Source: Actinomycetospora succinea
Lineage (GTDB): Bacteria; Actinomycetota; Actinomycetes; Mycobacteriales; Pseudonocardiaceae
Direction of reading: 5' to 3'
DNA length: 64,000 nucleotides
NCBI RefSeq assembly: GCF_004363095.1
Contig: NZ_SNYO01000002.1
Span: 496,001 to 560,000, forward strand
Part shown: one piece after another, positions 7,870 to 27,512 of the stretch
Numbering within the stretch: position 1 is the stretch's first letter
Layout of the letters: the number at the start of each line of letters is the position of its first letter
The notes under the pieces: generated by a model
What the model saw: only the letters and a program-made list of their open reading frames with translations
What the model was told of the DNA's origin: nothing
The model's database searches: none
Program-made: the position numbers and the translations under genes

Positions 7870-7914
7870 TGGAGCCGGCGCGGGGAATCGAACCCCGGAC
7901 CTTTCGCTTACAAG
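7870..7914. repeat. left attachment site (attL), displaced 3' half of tRNA-Thr
   Basis: This 45-base stretch is identical to 27437-27481. It equals the 3' part of tRNA-Thr from the anticodon loop to the encoded CCA, but continues into unrelated sequence, so it is not a functional tRNA. It is the chromosomal tRNA end displaced by integration. Confidence 0.9.
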
Positions 7915-14032: not shown

Positions 14033-14379
14033 GGAGACTCCGGAGTCGCTCGGTCGAAGGGAGTGGCCGCGGGCCCAGTCGCCACAGTCTTCGTGCATCA
14101 CCCCCGCGTGCCGTGGCTGAGCACGGAAGGGCGCCAAGCAGGTATACGCGATCACGTCCGTCGTGCATACCGCTCAGGTGCGCAGTGATCTCGTCGGGCG
14201 CCCGGCGAAGAAGATGATCGACTCGCAGTGTCCCCACCGACGGTGCTGGACAGGTATCGGCAGGCACGTCAGAGTGATCTCCGCCGATCTCTCCGCGGAC
14301 GACCAGGGGCAGGCCATCCGCGCGGCCATCGCCCAGCTATCCCACATGGTGATTCCCCCGGCGCGAGAGGCCGTGACTC
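14033..14379. other. intergenic region between divergent cargo operons
   Basis: These 347 bases separate the leftward sulfatase operon from the rightward SulP gene and should hold both promoters. I see no convincing coding frame and no clear operator; base composition is slightly less GC-rich than the flanking genes. Confidence 0.4.
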
Positions 14380-16071
14380 GTGATCGCACCCTCCCTGCAC
14401 GGGTACCGGCCGGCCTGGGCCCGGCGCGATCTGGTGGCGGGGGCGACGGTGTGGGCGGTCCTGGTGCCCGAGTCGCTGGCCTACGCCACGATCGCCGGGG
14501 TCCCGCCGGTGGTGGGTCTCTACGCCGCCGTACCTGCGCTGGTGCTCTACGCCCTGGTCGGCAGCTCGAAGCACCTCGTCGTCGGCCCGATGGCGGCCAC
14601 CGCCGCCCTCTCCGCGAGCGTCGTCGCCGACGTCAGCGGGGGCGGCTTCGACCCAGCGACACTGACCACCGCGTTGGCAATCACCGTCGGGCTCGTCGCG
14701 ATCGTGGCCGGCGCGTTCCGGCTCGGCTTCCTCGCAAGCTTCATCTCCGAGCCCGTGCTCAAGGGTTTCATCGTCGGCCTGGCGCTGACCATCGCCGTGG
14801 GCCAACTCCCGAAGCTGATCGGGGTGGAGAAGGGCGAGGGCGACTTCTTCGCCCAGCTCTGGCACTTCGTGACCCACCTCGGCGACGCGGACCTGCTCAG
14901 CGCAGCGATCGGGATCGGCACCCTCGCCGTGGTCCTCGGACTGCGGCGCTGGCTACCGACCGTCCCCGGCTCGCTTGTGGCGGTCGCGGTGGCCATCGCC
15001 CTGGTGTGGACCCTCGCTCTCGACCGCCACGGCGTCGACGTAGTCGGCCCGATCACCGCCGGACTTCCCCCGCTGGGGCTGCCGGCCATCCCGGCCTCGA
15101 CGTATCTGCAGCTGGTGGGCGGTGCCCTCGGGGTCGCCTTGGTCGGGTTCGCCGAGGGCCTGGGGGCGGCCAAGACCTACGCCACCCGCCACGGCTACGA
15201 GGTCGACCCCAACCGGGAGCTGCTCGGGCTCGGAGCCGCGAACATCGGGGCCGGGCTCGCGTCCGGGATGGTGGTCAACGGCAGCCTCTCCAAGACCGCC
15301 GTCAACGGGTCGGCCGGCGCCCGCACCGAGGCGTCGAGCCTGGTCGCTGCGGCGCTGACCGTGGTCACCCTGCTGTTCCTGACCGGACTGTTCACCCGGC
15401 TCCCCGAGCCGGCGCTGGCTGCGATCGTGATCGCCGCGGTCGTGGAGCTGATCGACATACGCGCCCTGGTGACGCTCTACCGGATGTGGACGCGGCGCCT
15501 GGGGTCGATCTACGGGCTGGCCGCTCGAGCCGACTTCGCTGCTGCAGTCGCCGCGCTGCTCGGGGTCCTGGTCTTCGACACCCTCCCCGGCCTCTTCATC
15601 GGCATCACCCTGTCGCTGGTGCTCCTCCTCTACCGCGCGTCCCGCCCGCACGTCGCCGAGCTGGGCCGGGCCGCATCCGGTGCCGACCTCTGGATCGACC
15701 GCGACCGCCACCCCGACGCCGCGGCCGCCGACGGTGTCGCGGTCGTCCGCGTGGAAGGCGGCCTGTTCTTCGCCGACGCCGATCACGTCCGAGACGCCCT
15801 ACGCGACGCCGCCGGCCCCGGCGTACACGGAATCGTCCTCGACGCCCGCTCGGTGCCCTTCGTCGACGTCACCGCCGCCCGGATGCTCGTCGAGCTCACC
15901 GCAACCCTCGCCGCCCGGAACGTCGAGCTCGTCATCGCCCGCGACCTCGGCCAGGTCCGCGACATCCTGCGCGCCACCGACGGCACTGCCCCTCGAGTCT
16001 TCGCCGAGGTCGACGCCGCCGTCGCCGCTCTCGGCACCGCCCCCTCGACCGATCCCAGGAGACGGCCGTGA
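14380..16071 (+). CDS. SulP family anion transporter with STAS domain
   Basis: A 563-residue inner-membrane permease of the SLC26/SulP family, which moves sulfate, bicarbonate or related anions. The family signature ATIAGVPPVVGLYAA is near the N terminus. About 10-14 helices follow, with GMVVNGSLSKTAVNGSAGARTEASSL in the middle. Residues about 440-545 form a cytoplasmic STAS domain (VVRVEGGLFFADADHVRD...VVLDARSVPFVD-like). GTG 14380 has GAGAGG upstream. Being divergent from the sulfatase operon it could handle sulfate released or required there, but bicarbonate transport is equally possible by sequence. Confidence 0.88.
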   Translation: MIAPSLHGYRPAWARRDLVAGATVWAVLVPESLAYATIAGVPPVVGLYAAVPALVLYALVGSSKHLVVGPMAATAALSASVVADVSGGGFDPATLTTALAITVGLVAIVAGAFRLGFLASFISEPVLKGFIVGLALTIAVGQLPKLIGVEKGEGDFFAQLWHFVTHLGDADLLSAAIGIGTLAVVLGLRRWLPTVPGSLVAVAVAIALVWTLALDRHGVDVVGPITAGLPPLGLPAIPASTYLQLVGGALGVALVGFAEGLGAAKTYATRHGYEVDPNRELLGLGAANIGAGLASGMVVNGSLSKTAVNGSAGARTEASSLVAAALTVVTLLFLTGLFTRLPEPALAAIVIAAVVELIDIRALVTLYRMWTRRLGSIYGLAARADFAAAVAALLGVLVFDTLPGLFIGITLSLVLLLYRASRPHVAELGRAASGADLWIDRDRHPDAAAADGVAVVRVEGGLFFADADHVRDALRDAAGPGVHGIVLDARSVPFVDVTAARMLVELTATLAARNVELVIARDLGQVRDILRATDGTAPRVFAEVDAAVAALGTAPSTDPRRRP

Positions 16072-16131
16072 CTCCTGCCGAGGCAGACGACCTGCAGGCC
16101 ACCATCCGAGGCACCAGCCTCGGTGCCGAGA

Positions 16132-16818
16132 ATGGGTGAGGCCATCGGCGCGGTCCTCCCGCTCGCCGTCGGGGTGTCGCTGAGCCCCATCCCGATCATC
16201 GCGGTCGTGCTGATGCTCGCGACCCCACGCGGGCGCGCGAACGGGATCGCCTTCGTCCTCGGCTGGATCGTCGGCCTCAGCGTCGCCGGCACGATCGTGC
16301 TGCTCGTGTCGGGCGGCGCGGGAGCGAGCGACGATCAGGCCCCGGCCACCTGGGTCGGCATCGTGAAGCTCGTCCTCGGCGCCGCGCTCGTCGTGCTCGC
16401 CGTCGTCCGGTGGCGGCGTCGCCCCCGCGGCGCGGGCGACGAGGCCCTCCCCGCGTGGATGACGACGATCGACAGGTTCACCCCGGCGAAGTCCGTCGGC
16501 TTCGGGGTCGCGCTGTCCGCGGTCAACCCGAAGAACCTCCTCATCACCGTCGGCGCCGCCGCCGCGATCGCCCAGACAGGGACGAGCGCCGGCGGGCAGG
16601 CCGTCGCCCTGGCCGTGTTCGTCGTCCTCAGCACCATCGGGCCCGCCGTCCCGCTCGCGATCTACCTCGGGATGGGCGACCGGTCCACCCAGGTCCTCGC
16701 ATCGCTCCGGACCTGGATGGCCGCGCACAACACCGCGATCATGTGCGTGCTGCTGCTCGTGATCGGGGTCAAGCTCGTCGGCGACGGTGTCGCCGGCTTG
16801 TTCGGGCGAGGCCCGTGA
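16132..16818 (+). CDS. GAP/SfLAP family membrane protein
   Basis: A 228-residue protein with six hydrophobic helices in the LysE-like arrangement of the GAP family (PF11139, sulfolipid-1-addressing protein type). Signatures are GVSLSPIPIIAVVLMLATPRGRANG and FGVALSAVNPKNLLITVGAAA. Mycobacterial relatives help export peptidoglycolipids or sulfolipids; the cargo here is unknown. ATG 16132 is chosen over an in-frame GTG three codons upstream. A short GGCACC/GGTGCC stem (16110-16127) lies just before the start. It follows SulP by 60 bases and is probably co-transcribed. Confidence 0.8.
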   Translation: MGEAIGAVLPLAVGVSLSPIPIIAVVLMLATPRGRANGIAFVLGWIVGLSVAGTIVLLVSGGAGASDDQAPATWVGIVKLVLGAALVVLAVVRWRRRPRGAGDEALPAWMTTIDRFTPAKSVGFGVALSAVNPKNLLITVGAAAAIAQTGTSAGGQAVALAVFVVLSTIGPAVPLAIYLGMGDRSTQVLASLRTWMAAHNTAIMCVLLLVIGVKLVGDGVAGLFGRGP

Positions 16819-16924
16819 GAACGATCGGTCGAAGTCACCGGCCCTGAGTGCCCCCGGCAAGCACACCGATCTCTCCGGTCATCACCGGGCAAGGCCCGTC
16901 ACGTAGTCGAAAGAGGTAGATGAA

Positions 16925-18136
16925 ATGAGTTCGTCGGGCTCATCGACTCCTGCCGGCCAACCCAGGACGGTCGACGCTGACTCAGAGGACAACTTGGAGG
17001 AAGGCTCCCGAGTTGTCTCGGACCGGCCTCCAGCGGACGCGGACCCGCTGCCGATTCGACGAAGGGTCACCGTGGGCGAGGCGGCGATGGTTACCGCTAC
17101 CGTGATCGGTGTCGCCGCGCTCGCCGTGGCCGCGTACGCCGCCCGCGGCGCGCTGATCCTGGTCTTCGTCGGCTTCTTCCTCGCCACCGGGATCGAACCG
17201 GCGGTGCGCTACCTCGGCCAACGCAGGGTTCCGCGCGGTGCCGCCGTCGCGCTGGTCGTGCTCGGTGTCCTGCTCGTGTTGACCGGCGTGGTCGCCGTCA
17301 TCGTCGTGCCCGCCGCTCATCAGGTCGGCGTCCTGGCCCAGCAGTTGCCCGACCGGATGAACCAGCTCGGGGCCCAGGTCGGGGGCCAGGGCACCTCGCT
17401 CGGCGCGGCGCTCCAGGACCCCGCCCAGCACCAGCAACTACAACAGCAGGCCAGCAGCGTCGGCAAGGCGGTCGGTGCCGCCCTCACCGTGGTGTTCTCC
17501 GCCCTGGGCGCCGTGCTCGGCGGCGTCTTCTCCGCGGTCACGGTCCTCGCGCTCATGGTCTACTTCGCGCTCGCGATGCCCCGCATCCTCGCCGGGCTGA
17601 ATCGGACGCTCGCGCGCGAGGACCGCATCAAGACCGCGGACCAGGCCCTCGGGCGGATCGGCGGCTACGTCTCCGGCCAGCTGCTCGTCTCGCTGGTTGC
17701 GGGTCTCACCTCGCTCGTCTTCTTCCTGCTGGCGGGCCTGCCCTACCCCGCACTGCTCGCGCTCGTCGTCGCCATCCTCGACGCCATCCCCCAGGTCGGT
17801 GCCGCCCTTGCGTCCCTGGCCGGGATCGGGGTGGCGCTCACGGTCAGCCCAGGCCTGGCCGTTGCTACCTTGGCCTTCTTCGTCGTCTACCAGGCAGTCG
17901 AGAATTACCTGGTCGCCCCACGCGTGTTCGCCCGCACCGTCGAGCTCAGCCCTGCCGCCGCATTCGTCGCTCTGTTGATCGGCGGGTCGGTCGGCGGACT
18001 CCTCGGTGCCATCACCGCACTCCCATTGACCGCCGCCGGGAAGGTCGTCCTTCGCCAGGCTCTCCAAGAACGCCGCGCAGCCCGTCCCCGCCGACCGTCG
18101 GACCCAGGCGGCGCCCCACTGAGCACCGACACGTAG
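16925..18136 (+). CDS. AI-2E family transporter (PerM/UPF0118)
   Basis: A 403-residue membrane protein of the AI-2E exporter superfamily. A hydrophilic 45-residue N terminus is followed by paired helices, a long periplasmic-type segment (residues about 125-175, glutamine-rich [10 protein letters not shown]) and the conserved C-terminal core ([56 protein letters not shown]). Family members transport signalling molecules, ions or organic acids; the substrate here is unknown. Its stop codon is followed immediately by a fragment of an unrelated UPF0060 gene, marking a recombination junction. Confidence 0.85.
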
Positions 18137-18138
18137 GG

Positions 18139-18242
18139 CCTGGGGCATGGTCTTCGACAGCCACCAACCGAACCGACTCGACGTCATCGGCGCCCTGATC
18201 TGCCTGGCCGGCGCCGGAGTGATCGTGTACGCCCGGCGGTGA
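18139..18242 (+). pseudogene. C-terminal remnant of a UPF0060 (YnfA) membrane protein
   Basis: Starting three bases after the AI-2E stop, the sequence reads [20 protein letters not shown] then [14 protein letters not shown] and stops at 18242. This closely follows the last helix and tail of UPF0060/YnfA proteins (WGxxxDGxxPDRWDVIGAxxCLxGxxVIMYAPR). The first three quarters of the gene are missing. A start at ATG 18147 would give a 31-residue peptide, but a truncated remnant is the better reading. Confidence 0.7.
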
Positions 18243-18283
18243 CGCGTGAGGTTGGGTCAGAGGCCCGACGATAGGTTGAGCAG

Positions 18284-18859
18284 GTGGAATCGGGAGCGGA
18301 GGCCGTCGGGGCCTCGCCGGCACGACGAGCCGCCGAGACGCTCGCGCGTGATCTCCTAGCACCCCTTGGCAACCGCTATCGCCACACCACGCAGGTGGCG
18401 GCGCGCGCCGAAGAGCTGACGCTCGCCGTTCCAGAGGCGGACCGTGAACTCCTCGTCGTAGCGGCCTGGTGGCACGACCTCGGGTACGCGCCTGACCTCG
18501 TCCAGACGGGTTTCCACCCCATCGACGGCGCCCTGTACCTGACGGCCAAGGGTCACTCGCCGCGGCTGTGCGCGCTCATCGCGCATCACTCGGCGGCGAC
18601 GTTCGAAGCGGCGGAGCGCGGCCTCGAAGCAGAGCTCGCCGAGTGGCCGCGCGAGGAAGGTCCGGTGCCAGACGCCCTCTGGACGGCGGACATGACTACG
18701 GGGCCTCGAGGTGAGCGGTTCGACTACGCCGAGCGTCTCTCCGAAATTCTCGCTCGATACGCCGAGGACTCGATCGTCGGGCGCGCCATGTCCCGTGCGC
18801 AGCCATCGATCCAAGCCGCGATCGATCGGACCAGCTTCCGCCTCGCGGCCGCTAATTGA
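18284..18859 (+). CDS. HD domain phosphohydrolase-like protein
   Basis: A 191-residue soluble protein with a compact HD domain: His-Asp in VVAAWWHDLGYAPDLV (around residues 62-70), an upstream RYRHTTQVAARAEEL and a downstream LIAHHSAATFEA that together supply metal ligands. Such small HD proteins hydrolyse phosphate from nucleotides or related compounds; the substrate is unknown. GTG 18284 is the start. Its 3' end overlaps the convergent NUDIX gene by eight bases, so the two genes are packed tightly. Confidence 0.75.
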   Translation: MESGAEAVGASPARRAAETLARDLLAPLGNRYRHTTQVAARAEELTLAVPEADRELLVVAAWWHDLGYAPDLVQTGFHPIDGALYLTAKGHSPRLCALIAHHSAATFEAAERGLEAELAEWPREEGPVPDALWTADMTTGPRGERFDYAERLSEILARYAEDSIVGRAMSRAQPSIQAAIDRTSFRLAAAN

Positions 18860-19325
18860 TCTCGGGCTCGCTGCCCGCCCTGAGCGCAGCCTCGATGCGC
18901 CGGCGCATCGACGGGTGGATGTCCAGCTCGGGGACGTCGGCGACGTCGACCCACTTCGCCGCCTTCGTCTCGACGTCGTCCTGGCGGGGCTCTCCGCTGA
19001 TCACGCGCGCGTGGAAGCACACGGAGAACTCCTGGCGCACCTCGCCGTCGTCGTAGGCCATGACGTGGCCGGGGTCCGTGTAGATGCCGACCAGACCCGT
19101 GACCTCGACACGCACGCCGGTCTCTTCCTCGACCTCGCGGACCGCGGCGTGGACGACCGACTCCCCCAGGTCCATAGCTCCGCCCGGGAGGGCCCACCGA
19201 TCATTGTCAATCTTGTGTATGAGCAGCAGCCGTCCACGACTGTCCCGCACTGCGGCCGTCACCGACGGCACGATGCTGTTCGCCTGAGGTGCCTCCGGGT
19301 CGTCGTAGTAGTCGATGCGCGCCAC
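18852..19325 (-). CDS. NUDIX hydrolase
   Basis: A 157-residue pyrophosphohydrolase. The Nudix box reads GGAMDLGESVVHAAVREVEE with ETG following, matching GX5EX7REUXEEXGU. The start VARIDYYDDPEAP fits close relatives that begin at this point, so GTG 19325 is preferred to a longer frame to 19400. Family members clear modified nucleotides or nucleoside diphosphate derivatives; the substrate cannot be assigned. It is convergent with the HD protein. Confidence 0.82.
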   Translation of the reverse strand: MARIDYYDDPEAPQANSIVPSVTAAVRDSRGRLLLIHKIDNDRWALPGGAMDLGESVVHAAVREVEEETGVRVEVTGLVGIYTDPGHVMAYDDGEVRQEFSVCFHARVISGEPRQDDVETKAAKWVDVADVPELDIHPSMRRRIEAALRAGSEPEIN

Positions 19326-19483
19326 GCCTCCATCTTGGCTGATGAAGCCGACGTGCGAACGCTCGTGCCGCTGGCCGCACTTCCTAGGCTCAGTCTTCAC
19401 CCGACGAGCGCATCGTTGATTCTCGCCGAGCCATGTAACGTTAGGCCGTTTGCGCTCGACAGCATCCGGACGACGGGGGGAAG

Positions 19484-20611
19484 ATGGCCGGCAGGAGCAA
19501 GCGACTTCTCGAGCTTGAGAAGACAGTGTGGCCGTCTGAGCCGCACGGGATGCTCAAGCATCTCGCCTATCGCTTGTACCTCCAGTGCTGGATGGGCAAG
19601 CTGCTTCAGGCCTTTCCAAGTGCGACAGTGGTTGACTGCTTTGCTGGGCCCGGAGTGTACGAGGACGAGAAGCCCGGGTCGCCACTCATGGTAGCCAATA
19701 CCTACCTAAACCACACCCGCCTCGCACACCTTGGCCACCTGAGAATTATCTGCCAGGAGGACCGGAGCGATCGAGTCGAGAGACTCAAGCACGAGGTGAG
19801 TAAGACTCCAACCGCTCACGGTCTTGAGATTCAGATCGAAAAGCCCGGGAAGTTTCACGATCGCGTCGACCAGCTCGTCGCGTCCGCCCGTCGGCAGGGC
19901 GAGGAGTATCCCGTCCTATGGCTAGTCGACCCATTCGACATCAAGTCAGTCTCGATGGCAGACCTCATGAAGTGCGTTGCTGGACCGCGAGATGAGTTCA
20001 TACTTACGTTCTTCGCTAATGAGATGTACCGTCTCGCCGGTAAGAACGATAACCTGAGCCCGGCTCTTGATCGGCACTTCGGTTCGAATGCATGGCGAAA
20101 AGCGCTTATCTATCGTGGTGAAGCTGAGCGCAAGCAGGCATTCGTAGATGTGTTCGCCGAAGGCGTGAAGAGTCGTGGTCAGTTCGAGGTCGCGGACTTC
20201 GGGATTCGCGTGGCGAATATGTCTCCACGCTACTCGCTGATACTTGCGACACGCGACATGTCTGGCCTTCAGTGCTGGAACAGCATGGCTTGGCACATCG
20301 ATCGAGTTGCGGGCCGTGGACAGAAGTCCGGAATGGAAGACCAGTTTGATCTCTTCGGCGGCCAGTCCGAGTACCCCAGACTTGAGGGAGAGCTTCAGGG
20401 CCTGGCAGGCAGAGAGGCCAGCTGGTCGCAGCTAGTCGACACGACTCTGCGATGTGGCTTCAAGGAGACTCATCTGCGGCAAGTACTTACTCGCTTGAAC
20501 GAGAAGGGGTTGGCGTTCCGCGCCTCGAAGTTGGAGAACAAGACACCGTGGCCGACCGGCTGCGCCGTGCGTTTCTACGCGCCTGAGTACCTTGATCTAG
20601 ATTGCGACTAG
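19484..20611 (+). CDS. tcmP: TcmP family three-Cys-motif partner protein
   Basis: A 375-residue protein of the three-Cys-motif partner family (TcmP). The N-terminal part has a Rossmann-like nucleotide/SAM-type motif Asp51-CFAGPG (VVDCFAGPGVYEDEKPGSPL) and a second acidic strand end, LWLVDPFDIK. The middle carries KQAFVDVFAEGVKSRG. The C terminus looks like a winged-helix segment (LRCGFKETHLRQVLTRLNEKGL). The molecular function is unproven. The usual partner, a DUF5131 protein, is encoded convergently with a 15-base overlap. Codon use is clearly less GC-rich than the flanking genes, which suggests separate acquisition. ATG 19484 follows GGGGGAAG. Confidence 0.85.
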   Translation: MAGRSKRLLELEKTVWPSEPHGMLKHLAYRLYLQCWMGKLLQAFPSATVVDCFAGPGVYEDEKPGSPLMVANTYLNHTRLAHLGHLRIICQEDRSDRVERLKHEVSKTPTAHGLEIQIEKPGKFHDRVDQLVASARRQGEEYPVLWLVDPFDIKSVSMADLMKCVAGPRDEFILTFFANEMYRLAGKNDNLSPALDRHFGSNAWRKALIYRGEAERKQAFVDVFAEGVKSRGQFEVADFGIRVANMSPRYSLILATRDMSGLQCWNSMAWHIDRVAGRGQKSGMEDQFDLFGGQSEYPRLEGELQGLAGREASWSQLVDTTLRCGFKETHLRQVLTRLNEKGLAFRASKLENKTPWPTGCAVRFYAPEYLDLDCD

Positions 20612-21346
20612 GTCGCCCGGCATCTCGTCCCACGTTCTGCCATCAAGAAGTCTGCCGTTCGCCTTCGGACTCCGGCCGCCCCACTGCTTGAAGAAGAATG
20701 CGGTATCTTGCGAGCGACAAGCGTCACGTAACTCACGGAACCAGCAAGGGTCTGCCGCCCGAAAGTGCGGACCGGACTCCCCGCCGGCAATCAGCCAATC
20801 GATGGACTGAAGATCAATGGTCCTGATTGACCCCAGGAGAGGCTCCGCGGAGATGAATTTTACAGCCGCGGGGACAGAACGTAGATCGTCAACCCGGTGA
20901 AGCACATCGGTGGATTCGACGCTGGTCCCAAGCCATAAATTGGAAGGCCATGGAAGCTGGTCAGCGATCTTGCGCACTCGACTAGGACGTTTCGTGAGTA
21001 CCTGATACGTGTGCCGGGGTGTCTCTTCGATCACTTGGAAGACATCCTTGACGAAGTCCAGCGGGACCTTCGCGTGAAAGAGGTCGCTCATCGAGTTCAC
21101 GAAGACGACTCTCGGCTTCTTCCACCGTCGTGGCTCGTCTAGCGCCGACGGATGTATGGATACGCCGAATCCTGGGCCGCTGGTAACGGGGTCGCCGTCA
21201 GTTTGATACTTGGCCTGTCCCATACCCTTGAGGCGCTTAGCAAGCACAAGCGCGTAACAGTTATCGCAGCCCGATGAAATTCGGTTACAACCGGTCGTGG
21301 GATTCCACGTGGCTTCTGTCCACTCGATCGCGCTGCTTCCGCTCAT
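20597..21346 (-). CDS. DUF5131 (phage Gp37/Gp68) three-Cys-motif protein
   Basis: A 249-residue protein of the phage Gp37/Gp68 family. The N terminus carries the three-cysteine motif Cys20-X6-Cys27-X2-Cys30 (WNPTTGCNRISSGCDNCYA), reminiscent of an iron-sulfur or zinc site. Conserved family segments follow: KKPRVVFVNSMSDLFH, TPRHTYQVLTKRPSRV, NLWLGTSVE, FISAEPLLG, DWLIAGGESGP and AFFFKQWGG. These resemble the radical SAM barrel order, but no enzymatic role is established. ATG 21346 follows GGGAGGGG. It overlaps the convergent tcmP, and the pair is often found in mobile elements and defence islands. Confidence 0.88.
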   Translation of the reverse strand: MSGSSAIEWTEATWNPTTGCNRISSGCDNCYALVLAKRLKGMGQAKYQTDGDPVTSGPGFGVSIHPSALDEPRRWKKPRVVFVNSMSDLFHAKVPLDFVKDVFQVIEETPRHTYQVLTKRPSRVRKIADQLPWPSNLWLGTSVESTDVLHRVDDLRSVPAAVKFISAEPLLGSIRTIDLQSIDWLIAGGESGPHFRAADPCWFRELRDACRSQDTAFFFKQWGGRSPKANGRLLDGRTWDEMPGDLVAI

Positions 21347-21451: not shown

Positions 21452-22234
21452 TTACCGGCTTGGAGCGCGCTGCGCTGACCCGCCCGGAACTTGTCCAGTC
21501 TCTGGCGCGCCCTGGCGCCAGACCTCCTCGAACGAGCGCATGTAGTGGTCCCACATCCGGCCGCCGGGCACCCTTCGAAGGTGGAGAACCGGAGATTCCC
21601 CGGCAGGCGCACCGTAGGCATGCCCGTTGACCAGCATGTCCTGGTCGAACCGGAACAGGCTGTTGTAGAGGGTCGTCCCGTGGGTCCGGACCTCGACACC
21701 CCGAACGGCGTGCACCTGCCGGAGGTATCGCCGGTGGAGCTGGATGCGACCCTGGAGGCCGCCGCTTGTCCCCTCCTCCTCCGCACGGAGTGCCACAGCC
21801 GGCGCGGTCTCATCGGCCAGCAGAATTCGGACTCTCACGCCCTGCGCCGCCTTCTGCGTGATCGTCGCCGTGAAGTCGTACTGCTCGAAGAGGAATGACC
21901 CCGCGTAGACGAGGACGTCGATGGCCTCACGGGCACCGACCATGAGCTGCGCCCAGGTGTCGTGCGGGATGGCGGCGCGAGTCGGGTGGAGCGCCAGGAG
22001 CTCGGCGACGCTCGCCGATTGCGTAGCCGGCGCGTCGACCACCTCGGGCCAGACGTAGGCCTCGTCCACGCCGAGGGCGGACGCGACGGCGACGCGGTGT
22101 GTCCGGTGGGGCAGACGTCCCTTCGTGATCCAGCGCTCGACCGTCTTGGCGTCTACGCCGATCCGTTCGGCCAGCTCAGCGGGCCGTAAGCCAGCGGAAA
22201 CGATCGAACCGCGGAGGCGCTGGTTGGTCACCAT
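21452..22234 (-). CDS. XRE-type regulator with phospholipase D-like C-terminal domain
   Basis: A 260-residue protein with an N-terminal Cro/XRE helix-turn-helix (LRPAELAERIGVDAKTVERWIT, residues about 18-40). The C-terminal domain belongs to the DUF5919/PLD-like type (LVYAGSFLFEQYDFTATITQKAA, VRVRILLADETAP, HYMRSFEEVW). These proteins are typical regulators of actinobacterial integrative elements. It is divergent from the ten-gene transfer/integration operon, with ACGTCCC repeats between, so it is probably the element's repressor. ATG 22234 has GAGGAG nine bases upstream. Confidence 0.85.
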   Translation of the reverse strand: MVTNQRLRGSIVSAGLRPAELAERIGVDAKTVERWITKGRLPHRTHRVAVASALGVDEAYVWPEVVDAPATQSASVAELLALHPTRAAIPHDTWAQLMVGAREAIDVLVYAGSFLFEQYDFTATITQKAAQGVRVRILLADETAPAVALRAEEEGTSGGLQGRIQLHRRYLRQVHAVRGVEVRTHGTTLYNSLFRFDQDMLVNGHAYGAPAGESPVLHLRRVPGGRMWDHYMRSFEEVWRQGAPETGQVPGGSAQRAPSR

Positions 22235-22246
22235 AAGGGACTCCTC

Positions 22247-22305
22247 GGGACGTTTCACCGCCGATAGGGACACTCTAGGCGGCTGAGGACGTCCCGTCAC
22301 GTCCC
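22247..22305. promoter_or_regulatory. candidate operator of the element regulator
   Basis: ACGTCCC occurs at 22289-22295 and 22299-22305 (10-base period, one helical turn) and on the opposite strand at 22247-22253, with a near copy (GGGACAC) at 22267. These flank the divergent start region of the XRE-type regulator and the transfer operon. Confidence 0.5.
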
Positions 22306-22395
22306 TTCTTGGTGGTGCTGGTGTCCCCTGCCGCCGCCGTCTCCTGGTGATGCACCGCACAAGCGGTCTCCCCTCGACACCAGGAGACGAGCGCA

Positions 22396-22800
22396 ATGCC
22401 CTACGACATCTCTGCACCGATCGACACGAGCCGGCTCGATGCCATCGCGACCGGCCACGGCGCGACGATGGAGCGCTGGGAGGACACCCCGACCGGCCGA
22501 CGGTCCTCGGGCCAGCCGCTGATCGACGAGGCCACCGGCGCCCCGGTGCGCATCTACGACGTGATGCTCCCGACCGGGCGCGACGGGCGCCATGAGCTGC
22601 ACGGCATCCGGGTCGTGTCGCACGAGGCCCCGGAGCTGGCGCCCTACTCCCCGGTGGAGCTGGACGGCCTGTGGGTCCGCGTCAAGCCCGCCCGCAACGG
22701 GGGCAAGGGCGTCGAGGTCAGCTTCTCCGCCGAGTCCATCCGTCCCGTGGCCGGCCCGCAGCGCCCGAACCGGCGCACCGCCGAGGGCGAGGCCGCGTGA
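22396..22800 (+). CDS. hypothetical protein, first gene of the transfer operon
   Basis: A 134-residue soluble protein (MPYDISAPIDTSRLDAIATG..., RIYDVMLPTGRDGRHELHGI, SPVELDGLWVRVKPARNGGK, VEVSFSAESIRPVA). The pattern of short beta-rich segments suggests a small nucleic-acid- or replication-associated protein of actinobacterial elements, but I do not recognise a named family. ATG 22396 has AGGAGA upstream. Its stop codon shares one base with the next start, so it heads a tightly coupled operon that ends in int. Confidence 0.7.
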   Translation: MPYDISAPIDTSRLDAIATGHGATMERWEDTPTGRRSSGQPLIDEATGAPVRIYDVMLPTGRDGRHELHGIRVVSHEAPELAPYSPVELDGLWVRVKPARNGGKGVEVSFSAESIRPVAGPQRPNRRTAEGEAA

Positions 22801-26045: not shown

Positions 26046-26228
26046 ATGGAACGTGTCTTCCTCGCCCCCGACGAGGTTGCCGAGGCCCTGCACGTCGGGC
26101 GCGCCAAGGTCTATGACCTCATCCGCAACGGCGACCTCGTCTCGGTCAAGATCGGCCGGCTGCGTCGCGTCCACGTCGACGCCGTCCAGGAGTACGCCCG
26201 CCGGCTCATCGAGGAGGCGGCAGCGTGA
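26046..26228 (+). CDS. xis: excisionase (Xis, MerR-like winged helix)
   Basis: A 60-residue protein with the excisionase/MerR-type DNA-binding fold: FLAPDEVAEALHVGRAKVYD, LIRNGDLVSVKIGRLRRVHV, DAVQEYARRL. It would bend DNA at the attachment site and favour excision by the integrase. ATG 26046 follows AAGGAG. Its stop overlaps the integrase GTG by four bases, the standard xis-int arrangement. Confidence 0.88.
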   Translation: MERVFLAPDEVAEALHVGRAKVYDLIRNGDLVSVKIGRLRRVHVDAVQEYARRLIEEAAA

Positions 26229-27376
26229 GCCGCAACCAGAACGGCGAGGGCAGCGTCTGGCCGCGCTCGGACGGCCGGTGGTCCGGGGCCGCTTACGTCC
26301 GAACCCACACGGGTCGCATCGAGCGGCGCTACGTCTACGGCAAGACCGAGAAGGACGCTCTCGCCAAACTGATCAAACTGCAGGAGAAGGACGCCCAGGG
26401 CGTGCCGGCGGGACCGACGAAGTACACGCTCGCGGACTTCCTCGCCGAGTGGCTGGAGCACATGCGCCACCACGTCCGGCCGCAGACATGGACCGGCTAC
26501 GAGAACAACGTCCGCCTGCACCTCGTGCCCCGCCTCGGCAAGAAGAAGCTCACCGCGCTCACGGTCCGGGACGTCCGTCTCATGGTCGACAAGCTCCGGG
26601 CCGAGGGCGTCAGCAAGCGCGGGGTGCAGTGGATTCACTCGACGCTGCGCGTCGCCCTGGAGCACGCGGTCCGCGAGGAGCTGGTCACTCGCAACGTCGC
26701 CCGCAGCGTTCGCGTCGAGCGTCCAGAGGCCGGAACGACCGCCGAGCCCTTCACCCCGGACGAGGCGCGCCGCTTCCTCGTCGCGGTCAAGGATCACCGG
26801 CTCTACGCGCTGTGGGCCACCACGCTCATGCTCGGCCTCCGTCGCTCCGAGGCGTGCGGGCTGCACTGGTCGGACGTCGACCTCGACAAGGGCACCCTGC
26901 GCATCCGCCGGAGCCTCCAGCGCGTCCAGGGCGAGCTGCGCGAGCTGCCGACCAAGACGCGGCGCTCGACGCGGACCGTGCCGCTGCCCGGTTTCCTCGT
27001 CCGTGTGCTCACCGACCACCGCGCGCGTCAGGCCAAGGAGCGCGCCGACGCCGGCCGGCTCCGCTGGGCGGACTCCGACTACCTGTTCGCCTCGACCGTG
27101 GGCGGACCGCTCGAACCTCGCAACGTCTCGCGCGCCTTCGACGAGCTGACCGCCGCGCACGGGTTCCGCCGCGTCCGGCTGCACGACCTTCGGCACACCT
27201 GCGTGAGCCTGCTGCTCTCCCTCGGGGTCCATCCCCGGGTCGTCATGGAGATCGTCGGCCACAGCGCGATCGAGATGACCATGAACGTCTACGGCCACAT
27301 CACGCTCGACACCCAGCGCGAGGCCCTCGGCCGGTTGGACGCCCAGCTCGACCTCGACGACCCCTCGGAGGACTGA
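26225..27376 (+). CDS. int: tyrosine site-specific integrase
   Basis: A 383-residue tyrosine recombinase that inserts the element in tRNA-Thr. It has an N-terminal arm-binding AP2-like region (GSVWPRSDGRWSGAAYVRT), a core-binding SAM-like domain (residues about 65-160, TLADFLAEWLEH) and a catalytic domain with Arg206 (GLRRSEACGL), His320-X2-Arg323 (HDLRHTC), His346 and nucleophile Tyr356 (MNVYGHI). All catalytic residues are present. The gene ends 60 bases from the right attachment repeat, as expected, and is last in the transfer operon. Confidence 0.93.
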   Translation: MSRNQNGEGSVWPRSDGRWSGAAYVRTHTGRIERRYVYGKTEKDALAKLIKLQEKDAQGVPAGPTKYTLADFLAEWLEHMRHHVRPQTWTGYENNVRLHLVPRLGKKKLTALTVRDVRLMVDKLRAEGVSKRGVQWIHSTLRVALEHAVREELVTRNVARSVRVERPEAGTTAEPFTPDEARRFLVAVKDHRLYALWATTLMLGLRRSEACGLHWSDVDLDKGTLRIRRSLQRVQGELRELPTKTRRSTRTVPLPGFLVRVLTDHRARQAKERADAGRLRWADSDYLFASTVGGPLEPRNVSRAFDELTAAHGFRRVRLHDLRHTCVSLLLSLGVHPRVVMEIVGHSAIEMTMNVYGHITLDTQREALGRLDAQLDLDDPSED

Positions 27377-27436: not shown

Positions 27437-27481
27437 TGGAGCCGGCGCGGGGAATCGAACCCCGGACCTTTCGCTTACAAG
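27437..27481. repeat. right attachment site (attR), within tRNA-Thr
   Basis: 45 bases identical to 7870-7914. They cover the 3' half of the intact tRNA-Thr from the anticodon loop to the CCA end, so integration rebuilt a full tRNA from element-borne sequence. Confidence 0.9.
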
Positions 27482-27512
27482 GCGAGCGCTCTGCCGATTG
27501 AGCTACGCCGGC
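27437..27512 (-). tRNA. tRNA-Thr (anticodon UGU)
   Basis: The minus strand folds into a full cloverleaf: acceptor GCCGGCG pairing with CGCCGGC, D arm GCTC/GAGC, anticodon loop CTTGTAA giving UGU (threonine, ACA codons), T arm with GGTTCGATTCC, discriminator U and encoded CCA. It is the integration target of the element; its 3' half is the attR repeat. Confidence 0.95.

Follow-up and report, generated by a model that had tools for sequence, protein, structure and literature searches.

Anatomy of a candidate two-enzyme defence cassette: the TcmP–DUF5131 gene pair of an integrated element in Actinomycetospora succinea

What do the genes for TcmP, the three-Cys-motif partner protein, and for a DUF5131 protein accomplish when they travel together on mobile DNA? 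We addressed this question for a pair located in a 64,000-nucleotide stretch of the Actinomycetospora succinea genome (contig NZ_SNYO01000002.1, positions 496,001 to 560,000; hereafter the window, whose own numbering is used throughout). The tcmP gene (19484..20611, forward strand, 375 amino acids) and the gene for a DUF5131 protein of the phage Gp37/Gp68 family (20597..21346, reverse strand, 249 amino acids) converge, and their reading frames overlap by 15 bp (20597..20611), exactly as an initial annotation made from the letters of the window had placed them. We favour, at a probability of roughly 45%, the view that the pair is a mobile cassette of two enzymes, protecting its carrier against other phages or elements through modification of nucleic acid. 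In this reading, the likeliest of those considered, TcmP would contribute specificity and DUF5131 the chemistry.

Both proteins are members of their families. TcmP scores 121.1 bits against TIGR04474 (curated cut-off 53, E 7.4e-35), and the DUF5131 protein scores 329 bits against PF07505 (gathering threshold 28.9, E 2.3e-98). The initial annotation proposed an undescribed system, a claim that had to be abandoned because the pair is already catalogued. In PADLOC-DB 2.0.0, TcmP matches model PDC-M30A (E 8.4e-25) and the product of the adjacent DUF5131 gene matches PDC-M30B (E 1.8e-100), which by profile match makes the pair a member of the phage-defence candidate PDC-M30. The DUF5131 protein reaches a higher bit score with PDC-M41B (350.6) than with PDC-M30B (333.4), suggesting that it may serve a second candidate system, PDC-M41, as well. 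PDC models are described as “phage defence candidates” derived through guilt-by-embedding, without experimental validation; of 100 P. aeruginosa strains, 32 are predicted to carry PDC-M30, and 68.8% of these 32 were phage-resistant (PMC10855318). Of two further papers, one reports two PDC-M30 copies in P. aeruginosa PA14 (PMC11878078) and the other, a study of the Hna defence system, tabulates the S. meliloti TcmP gene SMa2243 with Hna (SMa2245) (PMC12445080). No functional study of TcmP, DUF5131 or PDC-M30 was found in the literature searched, subscription papers and preprints lying outside that search.

The two partners have diverged to very different extents. Among 54 pairs, median identity is 0.197 for TcmP and 0.594 for DUF5131, with TcmP the lower in 1431 of 1431 comparisons, although this set was chosen by DUF5131 similarity and is thereby biased toward such a difference. 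Selecting 18 genomes by TcmP instead gives medians of 0.216 for TcmP and 0.694 for DUF5131, and 0 of 153 comparisons are reversed. The distances of the two proteins nevertheless correlate (Mantel r 0.36, with 0 of 2000 permutations as high). We read the sequence divergence as pointing to shifting specificity in TcmP and constant chemistry in DUF5131, while mere relaxed constraint is a possible alternative source of the TcmP diversity.

Linkage of the two genes runs in one direction. Our sample comprised 486 genomes, 296 from the class of the window and 190 from the class of a Bradyrhizobium. DUF5131 is present in all 29 genomes that carry an over-cut-off TcmP, within 1 kb in 27 of them, and the earlier proposal that the two families belong together is thus well founded. 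In the class of the window, TcmP occurs in 18 of 296 genomes and DUF5131 in 24, including all 18 with TcmP; by profile boundaries the two lie at most 1 kb apart in 16 of the 18, and 1.7 kb and 2.9 kb apart in genomes G089 and G102, respectively. Counted by copy, DUF5131 is near 18 of the 19 over-cut-off TcmP matches of this class, the exception being a second copy in G089. The other class has over-cut-off TcmP in 11 of 190 genomes, all with DUF5131 within 1 kb, and DUF5131 in 26; four further TcmP matches there are below the cut-off, of which the three that were fetched are RlmJ and the fourth, from a genome (G356) that has no DUF5131 match, spans 37 residues and lies at a contig end. Every genome with an over-cut-off TcmP thus carries DUF5131, while 6 of the 296 genomes and 15 of the 190 have DUF5131 without TcmP, so that the dependence seems to be of TcmP on DUF5131 and not the reverse.

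Individual loci show the same association with considerable freedom of arrangement. TcmP stands beside DUF5131 at 68 of 80 genomic loci (the best 80 of 589 relatives by DUF5131 similarity) and at 34 of 80 viral loci, two fractions that are not matched because similarity to the query is lower among the viral loci. With open reading frames (ORFs) called mechanically from their first start codon, these genomic loci show TcmP before DUF5131 in 27 cases, convergent genes in 24, DUF5131 before TcmP in 16, a divergent pair in one and no TcmP in 12. The sole divergent case (L080) has a 73-nt overlap between the partners and is possibly a start-site artefact, and at one locus (L074) the partners are separated by 2.8 kb. 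No TcmP–DUF5131 fusion was present among the ORFs of 132 loci, two long TcmP frames appearing by eye to be run-on. When 160 DUF5131 proteins are placed on a FastTree tree, 27 changes between pairing and solo occurrence are required, compared to a mean of 46.9 after shuffling; at least 12 of the 27 changes are forced by starred branches, and 58 of 156 inner branches are poorly supported. The state is therefore clustered on the tree yet often switched. At two solo loci (L125:8577-9971 and L113:8310-9596) a P-loop protein and a methylase-like frame are seen by eye directly or closely upstream of DUF5131, and these are possible alternative partners, perhaps of PDC-M41.

The DUF5131 protein is predicted to be a radical S-adenosylmethionine (SAM) enzyme with a TIM barrel, closest to spore photoproduct lyase (SPL). 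Its AlphaFold 2 model (predicted local distance difference test, pLDDT, 93.5) finds SPL as the top solved fold, followed by viperin, lipoyl synthase and RlmN among others, a result that supports the barrel-like segments remarked upon in the initial annotation. The C-X6-C-X2-C pattern given there corresponds to C20-x6-C27-x2-C30 (21257..21289, reverse strand), which presumably binds a [4Fe-4S] cluster. All three cysteines are invariant in 72 of 72 sequences, and all 102 paired copies, together with 52 of the 57 solo ones, retain the exact spacing. The canonical CX3CX2C motif is absent, and the enlarged motif stands in its place; the radical SAM superfamily includes variant cysteine spacings. 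A comparison with RlmJ, run as a negative, gave no profile match. The phage family GP88 (PF17338) matches DUF5131 weakly (E 1.8e-4, below its cut-off), and GP88 proteins are also present among the viral fold matches of DUF5131; the family could be distantly related to radical SAM enzymes.

TcmP is related to the methyltransferase RlmJ, which provides the nearest solved folds to its AlphaFold 2 model (pLDDT 92.1). The DxFAGPG methyltransferase-like motif noticed at the outset is present as DCFAGPG at residues 51-57 (19634..19654, forward strand); this presumed SAM-binding motif I has D or E at position 51 in 69 of 70 family members and G55 in 68 of 70. Motif IV, DPFD (residues 149-152; 19928..19939, forward strand), carries an aspartate, D149, that is found in 70 of 70 and aligns with the catalytic D164 of the RlmJ DPPY tetrad, the commonest form in the family being D-P-[FYWC]-G. 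Lys25 (19556..19558, forward strand) is K in 69 of 70 aligned TcmP sequences, the remaining one having a gap, and appears by eye to correspond to the catalytic K18 in motif X of RlmJ, whose K18A variant is reported to be inactive (PMC3814359). A C-terminal winged-helix domain (residues 282-342; 20327..20509, forward strand) matches PF22560 (GMT-wHTH) at E 0.0052, below the cut-off of that family; 23 of 70 TcmP family members match at E 0.01 or lower (best 8.4e-20), and the order of helices and strands in the model also backs this domain. TcmP has no PF04378 (RlmJ) match up to E 1, and a direct profile comparison aligns 19 columns only, at a probability of 68%. Sequence searches of the PDB gave nothing significant, and RlmJ is among the best PDB profile matches of TcmP (E 0.19-1.5) but is outranked by isocitrate dehydrogenase (E 0.073). 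RsmJ, used as a negative comparison, did not match TcmP.

Pairs of this kind are found on plasmids and phages as well as on integrated elements. DUF5131 is matched in 161 phage records, mostly of Mycobacterium and Gordonia phages and mostly annotated as hypothetical, and in 403 plasmid records, and the TcmP of the window is matched by eight phage records (tblastn). Gordonia phages Bosnia and Easley each have a convergent pair, both genes confirmed by profile, flanked by the immunity repressor on one side and the tyrosine integrase on the other. The match of phage Sahara covers 57% of this Bosnia region; the Sahara slot holds two small hypothetical genes and gave no TcmP or DUF5131 match. On plasmids, the pair adjoins an integrase in two P. 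aeruginosa records and DNA methylase genes in Rhizobium, and it is situated ∼5.7 kb from a DEAD/DEAH helicase on a Streptomyces plasmid.

Genes near the pair were also compared with PADLOC models, with ORFs called mechanically. At E 1e-20, 114 ORFs from 58 paired loci match 84 families and 131 control ORFs from 12 stretches (133 picked, two dropped for a residue limit) match 27, where the 114 are a random, size-limited part of 209 and come mostly from genomes other than those of the controls, the counts are of families and not of proteins, and many control matches are to PD-T4-6 models with one member each. Among the 25 families listed for the neighbours of the pair are type I, II, IIG and III restriction-modification, DRT9, HEC-05 and PDC-S06; the 25 listed for the controls are PD-T4-6, mad3, mad6, SspA, DndA, C3a206, C3a189 and MkoA models. 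A second comparison drew both sides from the same 11 genomes, with 12 stretches per side and three ORFs of more than 900 amino acids omitted from each. Its pair side includes JetA, JetB and JetD of Wadjet together with phage integrase and transposase families, and the latter two kinds are absent among the 25 control Pfam families listed. The catalogue entry, the restriction-modification and other defence genes nearby and the lysogeny-module position in Gordonia phages make plausible the nucleic-acid-modifying or anti-phage role first suggested for this locus.

How would such a cassette work? The winged helix and RlmJ-like methyltransferase domain of TcmP would bind a nucleic-acid target and set specificity, and DUF5131 would use a [4Fe-4S] cluster and SAM to generate a 5'-deoxyadenosyl radical and perform a shared chemical step, either on the target of TcmP or on the product that TcmP makes. 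The carrier so protected could be the host cell, the integrated element or a prophage. The observed basis for this proposal consists of the identities, the linkage, the conservation of presumed catalytic residues, the predicted folds and the genomic context. From there we infer a cluster, radical chemistry, a nucleic-acid target, cooperation between the two proteins and a defensive outcome.

Several observations weigh against this proposal. TcmP motif IV is variable, mostly DP[FYWC]G and not DPPY, and methyl transfer may for this reason be altered or lost. Sequence similarity between DUF5131 and SPL is limited to a 26-column stretch around the cysteine motif (hhalign probability 1.6%), the DUF5131 profile has no match on two SPL proteins, and the Pfam SPL family PF20903 has none in DUF5131 up to E 1; the link to SPL thus rests on the predicted fold. 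Gene order is variable, with the 24 of 80 convergent loci given above, which is unusual for subunits of a single complex. The second G089 copy of TcmP (G089:C1:3612828) is N-terminally incomplete, lacks motif I and has no DUF5131 nearby. It belongs to a duplicated stretch (loci L227 and L228, with 12 identical ORFs) in which each locus has an N-terminally incomplete TcmP and one is near DUF5131, so that the first copy is broken as well. Finally, the same-genome comparison of defence genes reveals no difference in the number of families at E 1e-10 (40 from 101 pair ORFs versus 42 from the 131 control ORFs already mentioned).

A close rival, which we rank behind the joint-modification cassette and hold only tentatively, is that TcmP writes a harmful nucleic-acid modification and thus acts as a toxin, which DUF5131 removes from self as an enzymatic antitoxin. 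Infection would tip the balance between the two, and phages with a solo DUF5131 would use it as counter-defence. The model for this logic is that of DarTG-like systems. Three observations are well accounted for by this rival: the presence of DUF5131 wherever a genome has over-cut-off TcmP, the frequency of solo DUF5131 in viral contigs with its motif mostly intact, and the weak TcmP remnants beside three intact solo DUF5131 genes. None of the 29 genomes with over-cut-off TcmP is without DUF5131, and solo DUF5131 is found in the 6 and 15 genomes of the two classes; however, the genome with the 37-residue TcmP match at its contig end has no DUF5131 match. TcmP is missing at 46 of 80 viral and 12 of 80 genomic loci (the best 80 of 589), a comparison that is weakened by the unequal similarity of the two sets to the query. 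Solo copies largely retain the exact cysteine motif (52 of 57) and interleave with paired ones on the tree, although DUF5131 is less than 1200 nt from the locus end at 7 of the 57 solo loci, and locus L161 is a cut-off pair. C-terminal TcmP remnants abut intact solo DUF5131 genes at L146:6755-7183, L113:9600-9950 and L103:9807-9995, but their scores are weak (E 0.0043, 0.085 and 0.51, respectively). The lone G089 TcmP copy without a DUF5131 nearby is missing the N-terminal part that includes motif I, a lesion that stays the same would agree with a DUF5131 that is constant while TcmP varies, and the nearest fold of DUF5131 is a repair lyase. On the other side, TcmP toxicity is a postulate, and a convergent layout does not couple expression in the way that toxin-antitoxin operons do. 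We know of no radical-SAM antitoxin; if the proposal is true, DUF5131 would be the first as far as is known. The more specific version, in which a lethal RlmJ-related writer is countered by an SPL-like radical-SAM eraser through direct reversal and solo phage erasers provide counter-defence, is doubtful and slightly less probable still.

Alternatively, the pair might modify the DNA or RNA of its own element or host, which would then escape restriction or recognition by other elements, without attacking phages. Its presence on integrated elements, plasmids (the 403 records with a DUF5131 match) and phages is consistent with such a role. However, restriction-modification and other attack systems are among the nearby genes, and the strong diversification of TcmP would be expected of an arms race more than of a self-mark that stays fixed; we regard this explanation as unlikely. 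Nucleic-acid repair or RNA maintenance, with DUF5131 mending damage as SPL does and TcmP as a helper, draws on the SPL-like predicted fold. The scattered occurrence of the pair (18 of 296 genomes with TcmP, and 11 of 190 with TcmP over the cut-off), the mobile and phage context and the diversified partner speak against it, and we consider it very improbable.

The setting of the pair in A. succinea agrees with the mobile character of the favoured cassette. Two identical 45-bp repeats, attL-like at 7870..7914 and attR-like at 27437..27481, bound an element of ∼19.6 kb integrated at tRNA-Thr (27437-27512). The right-hand copy lies within the 3' part of the tRNA gene, beginning at its 3' end, beside a tyrosine integrase gene (26225..27376, forward strand; PF00589, E 5.6e-27). 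The element also encodes an FtsK/SpoIIIE-type protein and WhiB, and together these features establish the mobile element that the initial annotation had described. The genome assembly, 97% complete, contains one DUF5131 copy. An unusual base composition had been reported for the pair, and its guanine-plus-cytosine content is indeed 0.578, compared to 0.732 across the whole window, 0.707 in the remainder of the element and 0.748 beyond the element. In a scan of the whole window (1863-bp windows, 50-bp steps), 0 of 1243 windows are as low, and the nearest (0.579) itself overlaps the pair. Because its value is lower than those of all same-length windows, a separate origin of the pair from the surrounding DNA is suggested.

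Other genes of the element were noted in passing. Next to DUF5131, a helix-turn-helix protein (21452-22417, reverse strand) with weak PLD-like and DUF5919 matches is a possible regulator of the element. A NUDIX protein (18852-19400) between the att repeats looks like ordinary cargo. In the region 14163-19400, also between the repeats, an AI-2E-type transporter (16925-18136) and a sulfate-permease-like protein (14380-16071) were recognized by eye and are likewise cargo-like.

Comparison with known systems defines what is new. A proven two-gene defence, gp43/gp44, adjoins the repressor of Gordonia phage CarolAnn and, like the pair in Bosnia and Easley, sits beside an immunity repressor; one of its products is described as a membrane protein and the other as DUF4747-like, the two being likened to RexAB, and by that description these genes differ in kind (PMC6426606). 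RlmJ, the 23S rRNA m6A2030 methyltransferase, shares with TcmP its fold, a profile-detectable relationship, motif I and the motif IV aspartate, but TcmP is without the ∼45-residue helical insert (by profile alignment) and the DPPY tetrad, and carries a C-terminal winged helix. SPL, a radical SAM enzyme, has the solved fold nearest to DUF5131, and the three-cysteine stretches align at very low probability; the spacing is C-x3-C-x2-C in SPL and C-x6-C-x2-C in DUF5131. Residues 76-220 of DUF5131 resemble TIGR04471, the NCBIfam radical SAM mobile pair protein A (E 2.3e-19), although its score of 69.8 bits, where the cut-off is 355, leaves the protein outside that family. The closest counterpart is PDC-M30, for which the searchable literature yielded no experiment; both window proteins match its two models, A and B, and their genes are adjacent. 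The families and this candidate system were known, and the additions made here are the direction of linkage, the predicted folds and motifs, the unequal divergence and the Gordonia phage position. If true, joint modification or write-and-erase would be a new phage-defence chemistry as far as is known, and the solo phage DUF5131 (Gp37/Gp68) would gain a role. The anatomy described here gives PDC-M30 a concrete mechanism to test, that of a predicted SPL-like radical-SAM enzyme acting with a strongly diversified RlmJ-like methyltransferase.
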